Assembly: GCA_027491935.1 (NCBI GenBank)
Contig: JAOZGB010000006.1
Span: 1 to 49,210 of the forward strand
Reading direction: 5' to 3'
Length of the DNA: 49,210 nt
Source of the DNA: Thermoproteota archaeon
Lineage (GTDB): Archaea; Korarchaeota; Korarchaeia; Korarchaeales; JAOZGB01
Of this stretch, positions 19,557 through 27,701 are shown one piece after another (the stretch's first letter is position 1; every line of letters starts with the position of its first letter). The position numbers and the translations under genes are program-made. Under the pieces are notes generated by a model. That model made no database searches. It saw only the letters and a program-made list of their open reading frames with translations, and was not told the origin of the DNA.

Positions 19557-20297
19557 ATGGCGGCTAGCAGGGGCTTGATCTATACCATTGCCTCCTTATA
19601 CTTAGTTGGAATACTTCTCTTATACGTCGGAATTGCATACTCTTCACTGGTTGCCGGGCTTATTGGAATAGGCTTTTTCTACGTTGCTTCTATAATATAT
19701 CTCATATCTCATGAGGGTTTCTTTCATGTGGATGTAGTTTCGTCCGTCTTTACATCTATAGTTAAATCTCTATGGTATATCTTTAAGGATGGAGGGTTTA
19801 AAGGTAGAGGCGTGTACATTCCGACTGAAAAGTATGTGAAGATCTTCGTGGGTAGAGATGAGGTTTTAGTGGAGATCCCCAACGTTTCAGAGGAAACCCT
19901 GATAGTAAGTAGTCCTCCCGGGATCATGGTTACCCCAGCATGTGCCGGATTGGTAGACATGCTCTCTAAAATGTTTAACTTTACCGCCGGTATGGATATA
20001 CATGAGTCAATGGCAATTCTTTCAAGAGTATTTGAGGAGTTAGACCTCGCGGAGTCCTTTGACTACTTTATCGAGGACAATAGACTTAACGTGAGACTTA
20101 CAAAGGTCCTCGGCGGCGGCTTCTGCGATAAGGTGGCGATAGAATTCCCAGGAGCCTGTGAAAAGTTCGGGTGTCCTGTATGCAGCCTTGTCGCCGCGGT
20201 TGCATGCTTATCCTATAAATCGCCGGTCTTAATTGAATCTGTGTATATATCTCAAAATGGAAGCAATGTAGATCTTACAGTTAGGGTTCTAAGATAA
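19557..20297 (+). CDS. Membrane-anchored protein with cytoplasmic Cys cluster
   Basis: Two N-terminal TMs; C-terminal IEFPGACEKFGCPVCSLVAAVACLSYKSPVLIESVYIS; no confidently named family. Confidence 0.65.
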   Translation: MAASRGLIYTIASLYLVGILLLYVGIAYSSLVAGLIGIGFFYVASIIYLISHEGFFHVDVVSSVFTSIVKSLWYIFKDGGFKGRGVYIPTEKYVKIFVGRDEVLVEIPNVSEETLIVSSPPGIMVTPACAGLVDMLSKMFNFTAGMDIHESMAILSRVFEELDLAESFDYFIEDNRLNVRLTKVLGGGFCDKVAIEFPGACEKFGCPVCSLVAAVACLSYKSPVLIESVYISQNGSNVDLTVRVLR

Positions 20298-20403: not shown

Positions 20404-22197
20404 TTGAAACTCAATCAGCTTCTAGTAATGATCCTCCTGCTTACTACCAATTCCGTCATCCAAGTAGTAGAAGGTTTGCCCACTCAGCCTCCGCAGCATG
20501 TCCGATACGACTTAGTAAGTATAAAAGAGCTGCCGTCATGGAGAAGCCTTATAATAGAATGGGTTCTGGGTGGTGTGGCTCAAAACTGGGGATATCTCAA
20601 ACTTTCCGGCATAGTAGGAGTGGAAGGAAATGTCCCCATAATATACATATCTGGCTCCGACCTTCCAGTACTATGGAGGCTGGGATCCTTCGACTATTTT
20701 GACGGCTATGGGTGGACCCAGTTCTACCATCCCAAATACTATAGGATATCCGAGTTCGACTTTAAAAAGGCTGAAGCAGATTGTGTGTTCAACATTGTAA
20801 TTCCAAACGTGTCTGGAAGCTATGGAGGTTTGCTCCCGATCCCAACTATAGGTGAAAACCTGGTTGGCTTCAACACTACGTTCGAAGATGTTACAATCTA
20901 CTACTCTGATACCGGTGCTCTATTTGCATATGCCGATATGTTAGAGGGAAACTTTAACTTTTCAGTTTCGTATAGCAGAACCACCTACAACCTAACAGAG
21001 ATAGCCCTCTCAAGCTTAAACAATGTCCCACCCTCCGTCAGGGAAGTTTACACTTCGTTACCACCAAACATCCCACATGACATTGATAATATCGCAGACT
21101 TGATTACCAATGAAAATTCTATCTTCGCTGACGAGGTATGTGCCTTATTAGACTATTTCACAGAAAATTACACTTATAATGAAGATGTAGAGATAGAGGA
21201 AGATGAAGACCCAATAGAAGCATTCCTCACTATGAAAGAGGGCAACAGTGCGCAGCTGTCAACAGCTATAGTTCTTGTCCTCAGAAAGCTTGGCATACCA
21301 TCAAGGATCGTTATAGGGTTTAAACCATCCAGCAGGCGGGCTGAGGGGTACTGGATCTATTTCCAGGATATCAGAATGTGGATTGAAGTCTACTTTCCAA
21401 ATGTAGGTTGGATTCCTATAGATCCCACACCGGAAGAACATACTTCCGATGTACTCCCAATAGAGGCTCTCTCACATGAAATAGCAAGGATTAAAATACC
21501 ACAGACCGAGCAAGGTTTCACCCCCAAACCCGGAAATGGATCAGCGGGAAACACCTCAACAGTCGGCGGGGACACGTCCTCTTCTGGTAACGTGTCCTCT
21601 TCTGGTAACGTGTCCTCTTCTGGTAACGTTTCTCTTGGGGTTGGGAATACCTCCTCTTACGAGGTGGGTAGTAATAAGTCCCAGCCAGCCTATCTAGCGA
21701 TTTCCCATAATAGGTTGTTAGGTCTTTTAATCCTTATCTTATCATTATTGGCTATTTCTATAATCCTTTTAATGAGTTATAGAGGGAAGTCTTCTATAGA
21801 GCCTTCTGCCAAGATTGCGGAAAGCATAGTACCCGAATACTTGAAGGTTCTTACTGATCAGGTGGCATCTTTTTATGACTCAGGCATGTACAGGGATGGA
21901 ATGGTTTATCTGGGAAGGGTCTTCCAGAAAATTATGGGCGACATATTCAACCTGAGAAGGGAAGAGTGGGAGACTTTCAGAGAGTATATCCACAGAGTTA
22001 TAAGTTTACTAGATGATGACAAGGATAAGAAAGAGATTTTGGACGCACTACTCTCCTTCGTTGTCCTATACGAGAGATCCCTTTATGCTTCTAAGCCTGT
22101 TGATGAGGAGGACTTCTTATTCATGGTTAGTTGCTTCTCCCTGATTATAGACTATTTTAGCGATAAGATAGGTGGCGGGGTGTCCGTGGCCGAATGA
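20404..22197 (+). CDS. Transglutaminase-like (TgpA-like) protein, predicted catalytically dead, with TM and DUF4129-like C-terminus
   Basis: MKEGNSAQLSTAIVLVLRKLGIPSRIVIGFKPSSRRAEGYWIYFQDIRMWIEVYFPNVGWIPIDPTPE; Ser and Arg at usual Cys and His positions. Confidence 0.8.
   Translation: MKLNQLLVMILLLTTNSVIQVVEGLPTQPPQHVRYDLVSIKELPSWRSLIIEWVLGGVAQNWGYLKLSGIVGVEGNVPIIYISGSDLPVLWRLGSFDYFDGYGWTQFYHPKYYRISEFDFKKAEADCVFNIVIPNVSGSYGGLLPIPTIGENLVGFNTTFEDVTIYYSDTGALFAYADMLEGNFNFSVSYSRTTYNLTEIALSSLNNVPPSVREVYTSLPPNIPHDIDNIADLITNENSIFADEVCALLDYFTENYTYNEDVEIEEDEDPIEAFLTMKEGNSAQLSTAIVLVLRKLGIPSRIVIGFKPSSRRAEGYWIYFQDIRMWIEVYFPNVGWIPIDPTPEEHTSDVLPIEALSHEIARIKIPQTEQGFTPKPGNGSAGNTSTVGGDTSSSGNVSSSGNVSSSGNVSLGVGNTSSYEVGSNKSQPAYLAISHNRLLGLLILILSLLAISIILLMSYRGKSSIEPSAKIAESIVPEYLKVLTDQVASFYDSGMYRDGMVYLGRVFQKIMGDIFNLRREEWETFREYIHRVISLLDDDKDKKEILDALLSFVVLYERSLYASKPVDEEDFLFMVSCFSLIIDYFSDKIGGGVSVAE
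21576..21629. repeat. Three 18-bp tandem repeats encoding SSSGNV
   Basis: GTCCTCTTCTGGTAACGT x3 in the low-complexity linker before the TM helix. Confidence 0.9.
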
Positions 22198-23495
22198 AAG
22201 AAAATTTCATCCTTGTCCTCGCTATCTACATAGTCCTTGCAACTCTCTTCTTGACATATTACCCCTCCTTTTCTGTTTTTAATAGCCGGTGGAATGGATA
22301 CTCGTCATTTATGTCTGTTGGCAGCGAGATCTTCAACAATTTTACCATCCTATCATTATTTAACGAGTCCTATTTTCCAGACGACCCTACAGGCTGCGTG
22401 CTTGTGGTAATCAGCCCATGCACCCCGCTTACGGAGGAGGAATGTAGCTTCATATTCAACTTTGTAAGGGAGGGGGGTGGCCTCCTCCTAGCTGAGGACT
22501 TTAGGAAGGGAAAATCGCTATCTGAAGTCTTTGGGGTTAAACTCTCCGGGAAGCTGCTGATGGATCCATCATACTATTCCAAGCAGCCATACTTCCCACT
22601 TATAAACTTGCAAGGCCGCGGATATGAAAATCTAACAATCCTGCTAAACTATCCTTCAAGCCTCTCAATAACGGAGGAGCTCAGATCCGGGTCTGTGAAC
22701 TACAAGGGTGAGAATGTTAGTTGTAATTTTAGAATAGTAGGCTGCACAACTAAAAGTGCATGTTTGGATGTGTACGAAAACATGGCTAGCGACCCAGGCG
22801 ACGTTTATGGATCATTCCCAGTTGCGCTGATAATGGAGTTTGGAAGTGGCAGGATAGCTGTTCTAAGCGATCCTGACGTTTTCATAAACGACATGATCGA
22901 TAGGTACGATAATAGGGAGTTTCTCAAACTCTTACTTGAGTATCTCAGTAATGGAAGCTATAAAGCACTCTACTACTATGAGTATAAGTTATGGAGGCTT
23001 AAACCACCATTTATATATGTCTTAAACCTTCGCAGTTTATGGTCAGACCTCACTGTGTTTCAAAAACTATTTTTATCTGCTATTCTTTCACTGTCACTAA
23101 TCCTCTCATCAATCGTTGTCTTGTCGTTTGCATTTGGATGGCCACTAATAGAATCTATAATTAGTATGCTCCCCAAAGCAAAGGGGGAGGTCGTTACATC
23201 AATAGATGAAAAAGTAAACCTAACATATGACAGATATCTTCTACCCCTGTTGGATAATTTTTGCAAGAAGCTCTACGACACAGCCGGCCTAGACTACAGC
23301 AGCGATATAAACGTTTTGGTTTCAAGCCTAAAGGCCAAATATCCTAGACTTGACACTTCTATGATTAGGATGGTTCTCGACTATTGGAGCCAACTGTCGG
23401 GTGGAGCTGGAGCAGAGATTAACGATTTCAGAACATTCTCAATGATATTTGATAATATTATAGAAATATCGAGTATCATAGGTATTGAGTGGTAA
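22194..23495 (+). CDS. DUF4350-like membrane protein
   Basis: N-terminal TM, VVISPCTPLTEEECSFIFNFVREGGGLLLAEDF, SGRIAVLSDPDVFINDMI, second TM; 4-nt overlap with upstream gene. Confidence 0.75.
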   Translation: MKENFILVLAIYIVLATLFLTYYPSFSVFNSRWNGYSSFMSVGSEIFNNFTILSLFNESYFPDDPTGCVLVVISPCTPLTEEECSFIFNFVREGGGLLLAEDFRKGKSLSEVFGVKLSGKLLMDPSYYSKQPYFPLINLQGRGYENLTILLNYPSSLSITEELRSGSVNYKGENVSCNFRIVGCTTKSACLDVYENMASDPGDVYGSFPVALIMEFGSGRIAVLSDPDVFINDMIDRYDNREFLKLLLEYLSNGSYKALYYYEYKLWRLKPPFIYVLNLRSLWSDLTVFQKLFLSAILSLSLILSSIVVLSFAFGWPLIESIISMLPKAKGEVVTSIDEKVNLTYDRYLLPLLDNFCKKLYDTAGLDYSSDINVLVSSLKAKYPRLDTSMIRMVLDYWSQLSGGAGAEINDFRTFSMIFDNIIEISSIIGIEW

Positions 23496-23534: not shown

Positions 23535-24512
23535 GTGGGAGAGATGACTTTAAGTTCCAAACAGGCAGAAATGATAAGGGATATATCAGGCATCTCTGAT
23601 ATTGTTAAAAGCATTATGGACGAAATGAGTAAAGTTATAGTTGGTAATGAAACTCTCATACAAAATATTCTTGCAGCTCTCTTCACACGGAGTCACGTAA
23701 TGATAGAGGGATTGCCAGGGCTGGGTAAGACGCTGATAGCTAAGAGCATATCAATCGTACTCAACCTAAAGTATAATAGGATACAGTGCACTGCAGACAT
23801 GCTTCCATCCGACATAATAGGGTCATTTATATATGTCCCATCAAAAACTGATTTCAAGTTCATGAAAGGCCCAATATTTGCTAACATCGTCTTTATAGAC
23901 GAGATCAACAGAGCTCCTCCGAAGACTCAGTCAGCATTTCTGGAGGCCATGCAGGAGGGCTATGTAACAGTTGAAGGGAGGACCTTCGAGCTACCAAAGC
24001 CTTTCTTTGTAATAGCAACTTTAAACCCCATAGAGGTTACAGGAGTCTTTCCTCTTCCGGAGGCTCAGATTGACAGGTTTGCCATGAAGCTCAACGTTAA
24101 GTATCCATCTCCGGAGGAGGAGGTTGAGATTATCAGCGGTAAAGGTTTTGATAGGATAAATGAGCTAAGGCCTGTAGCATCACCAAACCTGATACTCTCC
24201 ATCCAAGAGCTAGTTGACAAAGTATACGTGGATGAGAAGATCAAAAAGTATATTGTTGACATCGTAAGGGCTACAAGGAACTCTAAACTACTTGCCCTAG
24301 GGGCTAGCCCAAGGGCAGCCATAACTATGGCTAGAATTTCTAAAGCTAGAGCATTGATATTTGGCAGAAGCTACGTTATTCCTGACGATGTTAAGGCTAT
24401 AATTAAACCCACCTTAAGGCATAGGGTAAAAGTAAGACCAGAGGTAGAGCTTGAAGGCGTAGGCGTTGATGGAGTTATAGATAGAATTGTTAGAGGAGTT
24501 AAGGTGCCATAG
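23535..24512 (+). CDS. moxR: MoxR-type AAA+ ATPase
   Basis: HVMIEGLPGLGKTLIAKS, GPIFANIVFIDEINRAPPKTQSAFLEAMQEGYVTVEG, LPEAQIDRFAMKL. Confidence 0.93.
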   Translation: MGEMTLSSKQAEMIRDISGISDIVKSIMDEMSKVIVGNETLIQNILAALFTRSHVMIEGLPGLGKTLIAKSISIVLNLKYNRIQCTADMLPSDIIGSFIYVPSKTDFKFMKGPIFANIVFIDEINRAPPKTQSAFLEAMQEGYVTVEGRTFELPKPFFVIATLNPIEVTGVFPLPEAQIDRFAMKLNVKYPSPEEEVEIISGKGFDRINELRPVASPNLILSIQELVDKVYVDEKIKKYIVDIVRATRNSKLLALGASPRAAITMARISKARALIFGRSYVIPDDVKAIIKPTLRHRVKVRPEVELEGVGVDGVIDRIVRGVKVP

Positions 24513-24514
24513 TA

Positions 24515-25873
24515 TTGTATACTTTACGAATGCTGATTTTAGCTGTATTATGTTTCTCGCTGTTAACTATAGGCCTAACTTTCAGCGTTCAAATCTTAAC
24601 CTTGACAGGAATAATACTGTTCTTCATAATATTCCTCTCCTTTTTCAGCTTCCACATCTCGGTTGAAGCCTTCGAAACGCTAAAGGTTAGGAGAAGTGTG
24701 TATAACAAGGTAGTTGGTAAGGGAGGTTATATAGTTGTAAGGGTAACTCTCAGCAACCAGAGTAGCTATCGGCTTAAGGGGGTACGAGTGGAAGATAAAT
24801 ATTCAGGTCGGGGCTTGTCGGTTGAGGGAAGCTCGAACATTAATGTGCTGAACCTTGAACCATTAGAGGCTGCAAGTTTCTACTATGTCTTGAAGGCGAA
24901 AGCAGATGGAGCATTTACGATTGGCCCATTAGTGCTCTCTATGTCTGATAGGCTGAAACTACTCTCAGTTTCAAGGACGGTTATGGATCTGAGTAAGGTA
25001 ATCATCATACCTACTTTTGTAGATGTTAAGTCCTCGGTTACTGAGCTAGGTTTAAAATCCACACTAATCTCTCTAGGTGAGCACGTTCATGAAAAAAGCA
25101 TCATGGTGGGGCGGGGCGGAGAATACCGTTCAAGTAGAGAGTATATTCCGGGAGACGATACATCTTTCATTGACTGGAAGGCAACAGCGAGGAGAGGTAA
25201 GCTTCACATTAAGGAATTCGAGAGGAGAACCTCCTCCAGGTTCCTATTGGTGGTTGACTCGGGCAAAAGCATGTCTACAGGGTTGAAGCTTGAATATGTA
25301 AAGCAGGCCATTATGCTTCTGTCCAGAAGCATGTCTATAATAGGAGACTTTTATGGTCTCCTAATACCTTCAGTATCAGGTGTAGCCTTCCCAACCATTT
25401 ACCCAAGATACGTGCCGCCTGGCACAGGGGCGGACCACCTCTACAAGGTAATTACAGTTTCGTCGCAGCTGAACCCTTCAGGCATACCTAACTTCAGCGA
25501 TGCTCTATCCTTTATCAGGGGGAAGCTATGCCCTCCCCTCAACCTAATATTTATCACAGACCTAGAAGACTTTGAAAGGAAGAACATTTTAGAGGCTGCA
25601 AAAGAAGCCTTATCAGCAGGGTACTCCGTGATATGCATAGCAACGCCAACGCACCTTTTCGTTCAGCCCGGAGAAATCTTTGAAAGTGGAGATGTGCAGA
25701 GCGTTGTTCTAGGTTTAGACTACCTGAAAATGCTGAGAGAAAGAGCTTCCTTACCTTTGAAGGCTTTAAGAAGCCTCGGTGTTGAAGTTTACGAGGTGGG
25801 ACCGGTGGACATATTCCCGAGGTTCCTAAAAGTATATAAGTATGCTAAGGCATTGGCGGGTGTACATGGATGA
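24515..25873 (+). CDS. DUF58 domain protein (VWA-like)
   Basis: GRGGEYRSSREYIPGDDTSFIDWKATARRGKLHIKEFERRTSSRFLLVVDSGKSM. Confidence 0.9.
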   Translation: MYTLRMLILAVLCFSLLTIGLTFSVQILTLTGIILFFIIFLSFFSFHISVEAFETLKVRRSVYNKVVGKGGYIVVRVTLSNQSSYRLKGVRVEDKYSGRGLSVEGSSNINVLNLEPLEAASFYYVLKAKADGAFTIGPLVLSMSDRLKLLSVSRTVMDLSKVIIIPTFVDVKSSVTELGLKSTLISLGEHVHEKSIMVGRGGEYRSSREYIPGDDTSFIDWKATARRGKLHIKEFERRTSSRFLLVVDSGKSMSTGLKLEYVKQAIMLLSRSMSIIGDFYGLLIPSVSGVAFPTIYPRYVPPGTGADHLYKVITVSSQLNPSGIPNFSDALSFIRGKLCPPLNLIFITDLEDFERKNILEAAKEALSAGYSVICIATPTHLFVQPGEIFESGDVQSVVLGLDYLKMLRERASLPLKALRSLGVEVYEVGPVDIFPRFLKVYKYAKALAGVHG

Positions 25874-26511
25874 CGGCCTCTTCTGAGAGGGGGTTCAGCG
25901 GTTCAAAAAATAGGAATTCACGCAATACATCTATCTTTTCATGGGGCAGGCTATTTTCCGTGGTATTTTCAATCATCGCAATGTTATTTCTCCTCTTCAC
26001 CTTCCACAGGTGGCTTAACCACCCCCTCATATCTCAAACTGTAGGTGCAAGCACAGTACTAAGCAGGTCTCTATTATTCCCTATTATAGCCGTATTGTCT
26101 GCTCTTTCCTTAATGGTTTCCATTTCAATCTCTCACTCACTTGCCAGGTTGGATTGGAGTCGGATACTAGCTAACGAACAGGATAGTATGCAAAGGCTTC
26201 TTTACAAGGTTAGCAGCACAATCCATGAGGGTAGATGGGACGTTAAGAATAGATACTGGTCACTTAGAGCAGGATACTCGAGGCTCTTCCTGTGGAAGCC
26301 CATCCTAGTACTCTCGGCAGGACTTGCCTGCTTGCTTATCCTCTGCTTAACAGCAAACTCGCTGCCAGGCCTATTACACCTGGTTTCTGGAGACTATGAA
26401 CCCACAGCCGTCGACCACCTGTTCAAAGCCGTTGATGAAGGTCTTAACGAACTATTTAAAGGTATAATAGAAAACTTCATCAGGAGAATAGACCTCATCA
26501 TTGGTGGTTGA
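25870..26511 (+). CDS. Hypothetical membrane protein of the MoxR operon
   Basis: 4-nt ATGA overlap with DUF58 gene; three TM helices. Confidence 0.7.
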   Translation: MTASSERGFSGSKNRNSRNTSIFSWGRLFSVVFSIIAMLFLLFTFHRWLNHPLISQTVGASTVLSRSLLFPIIAVLSALSLMVSISISHSLARLDWSRILANEQDSMQRLLYKVSSTIHEGRWDVKNRYWSLRAGYSRLFLWKPILVLSAGLACLLILCLTANSLPGLLHLVSGDYEPTAVDHLFKAVDEGLNELFKGIIENFIRRIDLIIGG

Positions 26512-26830: not shown

Positions 26831-27091
26831 TTAGAGCTGAGAATAAGATGCACGGGGGTGAAGTGTTAAGCCTCCAATTAATAGACCAGCGATACCGTGT
26901 TGGAAGGAGTTAAAACTCATCTGTAGCGTGATCTTCAAAGATACAGAGTATATCCTTGTAACAGCCTTTACCAGTATGGGTGGGCTCTCGGGGTCAAGGT
27001 ATAGTGGTGAAAAAGCTGTGTAAGCTAATAAGGTAGTTAGGAGAACAGCCGTATACTCTATTACCCCTAAAGGTTTACAAGCCCTTTCCAA
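26831..27091 (-). CDS. Possible small membrane protein
   Basis: 86-aa ORF with a hydrophobic N-terminus, overlaps upstream ORF by 17 nt. Confidence 0.3.
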   Translation of the reverse strand: MERACKPLGVIEYTAVLLTTLLAYTAFSPLYLDPESPPILVKAVTRIYSVSLKITLQMSFNSFQHGIAGLLIGGLTLHPRASYSQL

Positions 27092-27701
27092 GTTTACCGG
27101 TTTCCGTTAGAAGTCTTGCCTGGTTTACTTTAAACTTTCTGTAAGTTGCAACTATACTTATAAAAAGAGAGTACATTGAGAGGCTTACGACCGTTGGATT
27201 TAGCCTTATACCCCATGGCGTGTAGTTTAGCAGTAGCCCTATTAGTGGTGTGATCGCCAGGCTTAACCCCATGCTAAGAGCAAGCCTCTCTATGTTATCC
27301 AGCTCTCTGGGGTCTGGAAACAACGCTTCAACTGTCAAGAAGCCTGGGAGGAATAGGACAAATATTGACCCGAAGACCCACCTAACAGGTTTAAACATGC
27401 TTCCAGGTGGAATAATGTATATAGACAGCATTGTGACTGCTATTGAGATAAGTGCTAGTGGGAACCATAGGTTCTCTATCCGTAGTAAGTATTCAAGCAT
27501 GCTCGACGCAGGTACCGGGGGCGGTTCGAGCGAAATCTTTCCCTCTTCGTGTAGGCTTTTGATAGCGTCTATCACTTCGTTCTCATCGATCCTGTATTTC
27601 CTAGAAACAAGACCTATAACGTCTGAAACCGTGTTCGCCTTTTTCATTTTGATAAGTCTTACGATATGTTTCTTTAGGGCTTCCCGACTTTTCGACGGCA
27701 A
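27075..27701 (-). CDS. DUF1616-like membrane domain with N-terminal HTH
   Basis: VSDVIGLVSRKYRIDENEVIDAIKSLHEEGKISLE plus FLPGFLTVEALFPDPRELDNIERLALSMGLSLAITPLIGLLLNYTPWGIRL. Confidence 0.75.
   Translation of the reverse strand: MPSKSREALKKHIVRLIKMKKANTVSDVIGLVSRKYRIDENEVIDAIKSLHEEGKISLEPPPVPASSMLEYLLRIENLWFPLALISIAVTMLSIYIIPPGSMFKPVRWVFGSIFVLFLPGFLTVEALFPDPRELDNIERLALSMGLSLAITPLIGLLLNYTPWGIRLNPTVVSLSMYSLFISIVATYRKFKVNQARLLTETGKLGKGL

Follow-up and report, generated by a model that had tools for sequence, protein, structure and literature searches.

The protein encoded at 20404-22197 of the window, the whole 49,210-nucleotide stretch of DNA analysed here, is probably a catalytically dead transglutaminase (TG)-fold ectodomain that forms the surface subunit of an archaeal DUF4350-MoxR-DUF58 membrane complex of the arCOG01314 type. 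The signal peptide would export the protein and a single transmembrane (TM) helix would anchor it, and the DUF4129-like tail in the cytoplasm may couple it to MoxR and to the DUF58/vWA protein. MoxR ATPases and vWA proteins jointly remodel targets, as in NorQD (PMC13036017), which makes the tail a plausible contact for MoxR-DUF58. That the subunits associate physically, and that MoxR acts on the assembly to remodel it, is our inference. The ectodomain would be retained because of its shape and because it contacts DUF4350 or envelope proteins, rather than for catalysis, since the same slot in related clusters is often filled by proteins without a TG domain. The operon and its surroundings contain the following genes.

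19557..20297, + strand: operon gene 1, membrane protein with conserved Cys and a weak TRAPP/V4R-like fold match (model, Foldseek); conserved upstream of the TG gene in L021, L022, L023 and L223
20404..22197, + strand: putative pseudo-transglutaminase surface protein, 597 aa, TTG start (ORF translation, Pfam, structure model)
22194..23495, + strand: DUF4350 protein, arCOG01314 type (Pfam, 1.1e-12; conserved)
23535..24512, + strand: MoxR AAA+ ATPase (AAA_3, 6e-57)
24515..25873, + strand: DUF58 (vWA-like) protein (Pfam, 2.3e-18)
25870..26511, + strand: operon gene 6, small membrane protein (conserved in L021, L022 and L222)
27075..27701, - strand: N-terminal part of DUF1616 (Pfam, 2.1e-32), a component of the arCOG01314 system (PMC5898192)
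28270..28887, + strand: C-terminal part of DUF1616, divergent (just below the Pfam cut-off)

A 2015 report proposed that, in archaea, DUF4350, MoxR, vWA and DUF1616 proteins work together with Ig-like surface proteins as a complex for secretion or membrane remodelling; transglutaminase is not mentioned in its main text (PMC5898192). The window carries the arrangement that defines arCOG01314, a DUF4350 gene beside MoxR and a vWA-type gene, with DUF1616 (COG4743) ORFs nearby. The two DUF1616 halves are on opposite strands in the window, and in G017, a genome of the same order, they are consecutive on one strand. No Ig-like surface protein was found among the window ORFs scanned, which are a part of all ORFs. 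Gene 1, the TG protein, DUF4350 and MoxR were present in all four orthologue operons, and DUF58 and gene 6 came next where the contig was long enough. NCBIfam yielded no family name for five of the operon's proteins, namely TG, DUF4350, DUF58, gene 1 and gene 6. Gene 1 encodes two N-terminal TM helices and then a C-terminal domain with conserved cysteines. It has no Pfam match, and weak Foldseek matches of its model to BcsD and TRAPP subunits (E 0.01-0.03) suggest a TRAPP/V4R-like fold. Divergent gene 1 homologues adjoin DUF4350 clusters in other archaea (L266, L268, L274-L278).

The predicted order of the 20404-22197 product is signal peptide, TgpA-like beta domain, TG domain, Ser/Thr/Asn/Gly-rich linker, TM helix and DUF4129-like tail. 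At about 21585-21645, part of the linker coding sequence consists of almost perfect tandem copies of an 18-base unit that encodes SSSGNV. Residues 236-341 match Pfam Transglut_core (PF01841) at 3.2e-19, with 69.6 bits against a cut-off of 23, and this is the only Transglut_core match in the source genome assembly (456 kb, ~67% complete). The elements of the protein are listed below.

20488..20502, + strand: mature N-terminal motif PPQHV, which contains H32 (orthologue alignments)
21016..21459, + strand: TG-fold domain, residues 205-352 (Pfam at 236-341; model pLDDT mostly 75-93)
21247..21249, + strand: Ser282 (AGT), catalytic Cys position, first residue of predicted helix 282-295 (TgpA alignment, orthologues, model)
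21373..21375, + strand: Arg324 (AGA), catalytic His position, in predicted strand 323-331 (TgpA alignment, orthologues, model)
21421..21423, + strand: Asp340, third triad residue, retained (TgpA alignment, orthologues)
21868..22140, + strand: DUF4129-like tail, C-terminal to the TM helix, predicted cytoplasmic (Pfam, 1.6e-4, just below the cut-off; iterated profile)

A phmmer alignment with Pseudomonas aeruginosa TgpA (PDB 6g49, 1.2e-7) placed EGNSAQLSTA opposite SGFCAHYAGA, DIRMWIEV opposite DAHAWVEY, and IDPTP opposite VDPTY. In place of the Cys-His-Asp triad of an active transglutaminase or thiol peptidase, the protein has Ser282, Arg324 and Asp340, and it is predicted to lack that activity. 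The preliminary description had reported the same codons and coordinates, Cys to Ser (AGT) and His to Arg (AGA) with the Asp kept, and the TgpA alignment agrees with it. It had also named, as one thing that would refute it, another alignment supplying the missing Cys and His. None was found, because H32, just after the signal peptide and outside the TG domain, is the only Cys or His that is invariant, both in a four-sequence alignment and in an alignment with two full-length orthologues. As for the tail, an iterated profile found it in nearly all slot proteins of the DUF4350 system, and in the model the helical tail matches 2hsb, the structure of a HEPN domain, with E 0.013 and TM 0.59 by target.

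The predicted TG fold is kept. The TG core of a ten-row model had pLDDT values mostly of 75-93. In this model, Ser282 opens helix 282-295, strand 323-331 contains Arg324, and Asp340 comes after strand 335-339, so that the triad elements are modelled in the expected order within the TG domain. The best PDB match of the model in Foldseek was the TgpA periplasmic domain (E 2.6e-15, TM 0.70 by target), and the alignment to the TgpA beta and TG domains spans 278-324 columns. TgpA_N gave only a weak 20-residue match (E 0.26) in the 20404-22197 protein, whose model has one N-terminal helix; seven of ten relatives had TgpA_N matches at E up to 0.1. Pairwise dN/dS in degenerate cores, where many pairs were saturated, had a median of 0.19 for non-Cys proteins of family f10 and was about 0.14 for f42 (two usable pairs) and 0.12 for the f15 pair. 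The N-terminal fragment gave 0.14 for the G020/G024 orthologue pair. TG core identity across families was 36-41%, no lower than that of the N-terminal domain and above that of the linker. These values point to purifying selection on the degenerate TG domains and away from decay.

Orthologues were searched for in 61 genomes and then in all 29 genomes available for the phylum. The 61-genome search found full or near-full orthologues in G020, of the same order, and in G026 and G027, of the same phylum; the G024 orthologue is an N-terminal fragment at a contig end. The 29-genome search of the phylum found no further orthologues, and the gene is absent from most other genomes of the order. Like the source genome, several of the relatives are represented by partial assemblies. 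In all three readable orthologues, Ser stands in for the catalytic Cys and Tyr for the His, and the Asp is kept. The Ser/Tyr combination occurs in two other families of the phylum, in the same operon. The preliminary description would have been undermined by orthologues with intact triads; there were none among the three, the loss is clade-wide, and an isolated mutation in the 20404-22197 gene is ruled out. G020 also carries a separate transglutaminase-like gene, L015, with an apparently intact C-H-D, and the lineage is therefore not devoid of active transglutaminases generally.

To read the triad by gene context, relatives were gathered from named genome contigs and 394 genomes, their neighbourhoods were fetched, and context was assigned with iterated profiles for TG, DUF4350, MoxR and DUF58. 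The sample was selected by similarity to this TG family, with a single genome standing for each species, and sequences that share ancestry are not independent, so the counts describe a pattern and are no test. Among archaeal TGs adjoining DUF4350 and MoxR, mostly with DUF58 too, Cys was missing in 17 of 18 distinct proteins. These were the window protein (S-R-D), L021-L023 (S-Y-D), L153, L161 and L171 (S-H-D), seven proteins from family f42 (P-(M/I/T)-(V/I/L)) and three from f57 (W-Y-D). The remaining protein, L162, was C-H-D on realignment, and the statement that every DUF4350-linked TG is dead was dropped. Two DUF4350-linked TGs found later were both Cys-less: L261 is F-Y-D, and L262, which is partial, has neither Cys nor His. 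When MoxR and DUF58 were near without DUF4350, Cys was kept in 72 TGs and lost in 12, with the bacterial rows being the best 80 matches. The 12 were nine proteins of family f10 (S-H-D, A-H-D, S-Q-D, S-T-D) and three of Chloroflexota (S-H-E). TGs with no MoxR, DUF58 or DUF4350 nearby kept Cys in 40 of 41 cases. Both Cys and His are retained in most of the MoxR-linked bacterial and stand-alone TGs. The f10 proteins, putatively Thermococcus-like, lie in TG-MoxR-DUF58 clusters (L158, L168, L172, L179, L181, L189, L192, L194 and L197) with an S-H-D, A-H-D, S-Q-D or S-T-D site, and C-H-D is found in a sister genus and in second copies. The Chloroflexota TgpA-like proteins L063, L065, L068 and L085 have Ser for Cys and retain His and Glu (S-H-E).

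The slot upstream of DUF4350 is exchanged between lineages. In other archaea, the slot protein has a signal peptide and a DUF4129-like tail but lacks a TG domain. Among such slot proteins, L266 has Big_3_5 Ig domains that clear the Pfam cut-off and those of L268 only just do so, and the remaining non-TG ectodomains had weak or no Pfam matches to Ig-like domains. G017 has a slot protein without a TG domain upstream of DUF4350-MoxR-DUF58, and G139 has both kinds of cluster, one with a TG slot and one with a non-TG slot. G095 combines a DUF4350-MoxR-DUF58 cluster whose slot protein is Ig-like with a second, TG-MoxR cluster whose TG is S-H-D. The G017 protein (L224:4344-6293, - strand) is 650 aa long and single-pass; its ectodomain gives a weak A2M/Ig-like match and its tail is DUF4129-like. 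The L224 locus otherwise keeps the gene 1-like, DUF4350, MoxR and DUF58 genes. DUF4350 matches L225-L229 lie in other gene contexts, where no TG or DUF4129 slot protein was found. A PPxH(V/I)- or PRH(V/I)-like start motif occurs in several slot proteins of both TG and non-TG types; it is short and missing from many. A P(P)(Q/R)H(V/I)- or PRQ-like motif comes right after the signal peptide in the window (20488-20502), L224, L265, L269 and L277. The shared motif hints that slot proteins may have ends of common ancestry around an exchanged middle.

A structural or assembly role is favoured, given that slot proteins often have no TG domain and are sometimes Ig-like. The preliminary description had called the protein a pseudoenzyme, perhaps a peptide-binding sensor or scaffold. 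The clade-wide loss, its recurrence in related archaeal clusters and the fold under purifying selection support the pseudoenzyme; the peptide-binding sensor found no direct support, and a scaffold fits better. Two observations on related proteins run counter to a purely structural slot: the C-H-D site of L162 indicates by its sequence that the slot is compatible with catalysis, and the S-H-D proteins L153, L161 and L171 could be altered enzymes.

The history of the loss was followed in two trees, several relevant branches of which are weakly supported. In the MoxR tree, the DUF4350-linked rows, including L222 and L224, which have no readable TG, form one group (SH-aLRT 89 and 82), and the f10-type archaea (98) and the bacteria (99) group separately. 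The Cys losses of Chloroflexota and f10 nest within Cys-bearing MoxR groups, which gives at least three losses by cluster history. The TG-domain tree, built on few columns, required four changes. The TG-domain data alone are compatible with a single origin of all Cys losses (AU p = 0.165) and with the DUF4350-linked TGs as a single clade (p = 0.718).

The main alternative, which we regard as possible, if tentative, is that the protein is a receptor. A peptide, glycan or isopeptide would occupy the old active-site cleft, and this occupancy would be signalled to MoxR/DUF58 by way of the TM helix and the DUF4129 tail. The pocket does not seem to drift freely, as Ser is present in all four readable sequences and Tyr in three of them, and D322, W326 and E328 near the pocket are invariant in the four. 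Some TRAPP/V4R-like folds bind small molecules, and gene 1 weakly matches such folds. However, the pocket residues vary across DUF4350-linked clades (S/R, S/Y, P/M, W/Y, F/Y), unlike one conserved site, and other slot proteins do without any TG domain. A broader and rather speculative form of this idea would have the loss of catalysis itself selected, the cleft binding an envelope peptide or glycan, DUF4129-MoxR-DUF58 acting as an ATP-driven transducer, and the archaeal machine swapping ectodomains, dead TG or Ig-like, between lineages.

We consider it unlikely that the site performs different chemistry, whether as a hydrolase or as an acyltransferase, Ser-based or remodelled in some other way. 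The window clade does have Ser instead of Cys, and the putatively Thermococcus-like and Chloroflexota homologues include S-H-D or S-H-E sites, but the base position is Arg in the window and Tyr in the orthologues. No other Cys is conserved, the one conserved His lies outside the TG domain, and related clades have at the nucleophile position Pro, Trp or Phe, which are incapable of that role. From these residues, Ser chemistry without a base appears unlikely in the window clade and less unlikely in the S-H-D relatives. Relaxed constraint, with the TG domain decaying and having little function, is very improbable. It would suit the many ways in which triad residues diverge across clades and the lack of the domain in the G017 slot; against it, the frames are open throughout, dN/dS is 0.12-0.19 in degenerate cores, the TG core retains its identity across families and the operon is conserved. 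A sequencing or assembly error can be dismissed: the assembly is partial, but AGA matches neither His codon at any position and the same loss recurs in independent genomes, so that the orthologues already refute this reading.

Operons that combine MoxR and DUF58 with a transglutaminase gene are widespread among bacteria. The role of the transglutaminase in these bacterial operons is, to our knowledge, poorly known. In the archaeal DUF4350 branch, the nearly constant loss of the active site, together with slot exchange, suggests that a structural role of the ectodomain can be the essential one, and that the cytoplasmic DUF4129-MoxR-DUF58 part is the constant core. The pattern speaks against annotating such archaeal genes as transglutaminases or proteases, and they offer natural catalytically dead examples for comparison with the bacterial enzymes. 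The literature searched contained no account of dead transglutaminases within MoxR operons. The dead TG in the slot would be new; the DUF4350-MoxR-vWA-DUF1616 system has already been published as a prediction.

Among known proteins, the best structural match is P. aeruginosa TgpA (PDB 6g49/6g4h; PMC3507681), which has extracytoplasmic beta and TG domains like those of the 20404-22197 protein. Many TgpA-like proteins also adjoin MoxR and DUF58, as at this locus. TgpA, however, has an intact Cys-His-Asp, tested transglutaminase activity and a multi-TM N-terminal domain (PMC3507681), whereas the 20404-22197 protein has only a signal peptide at its N-terminus and neither Cys nor His in the site. 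The eukaryotic proteins EPB42, menin, Rad4, FBXO21 and CC2D2A are pseudoenzymes of the papain/transglutaminase fold with scaffolding or binding functions (PMC10318531). They resemble the archaeal protein in keeping the fold without the catalytic residues and differ in their eukaryotic lineage and unrelated gene context. The closest system is the arCOG01314/DUF4350-MoxR-vWA system (PMC5898192), whose DUF4350, MoxR, DUF58 (vWA-like) and DUF1616 components are all at the 20404-22197 locus; its main text describes Ig-like surface proteins, whereas here a dead TG lies upstream of DUF4350.
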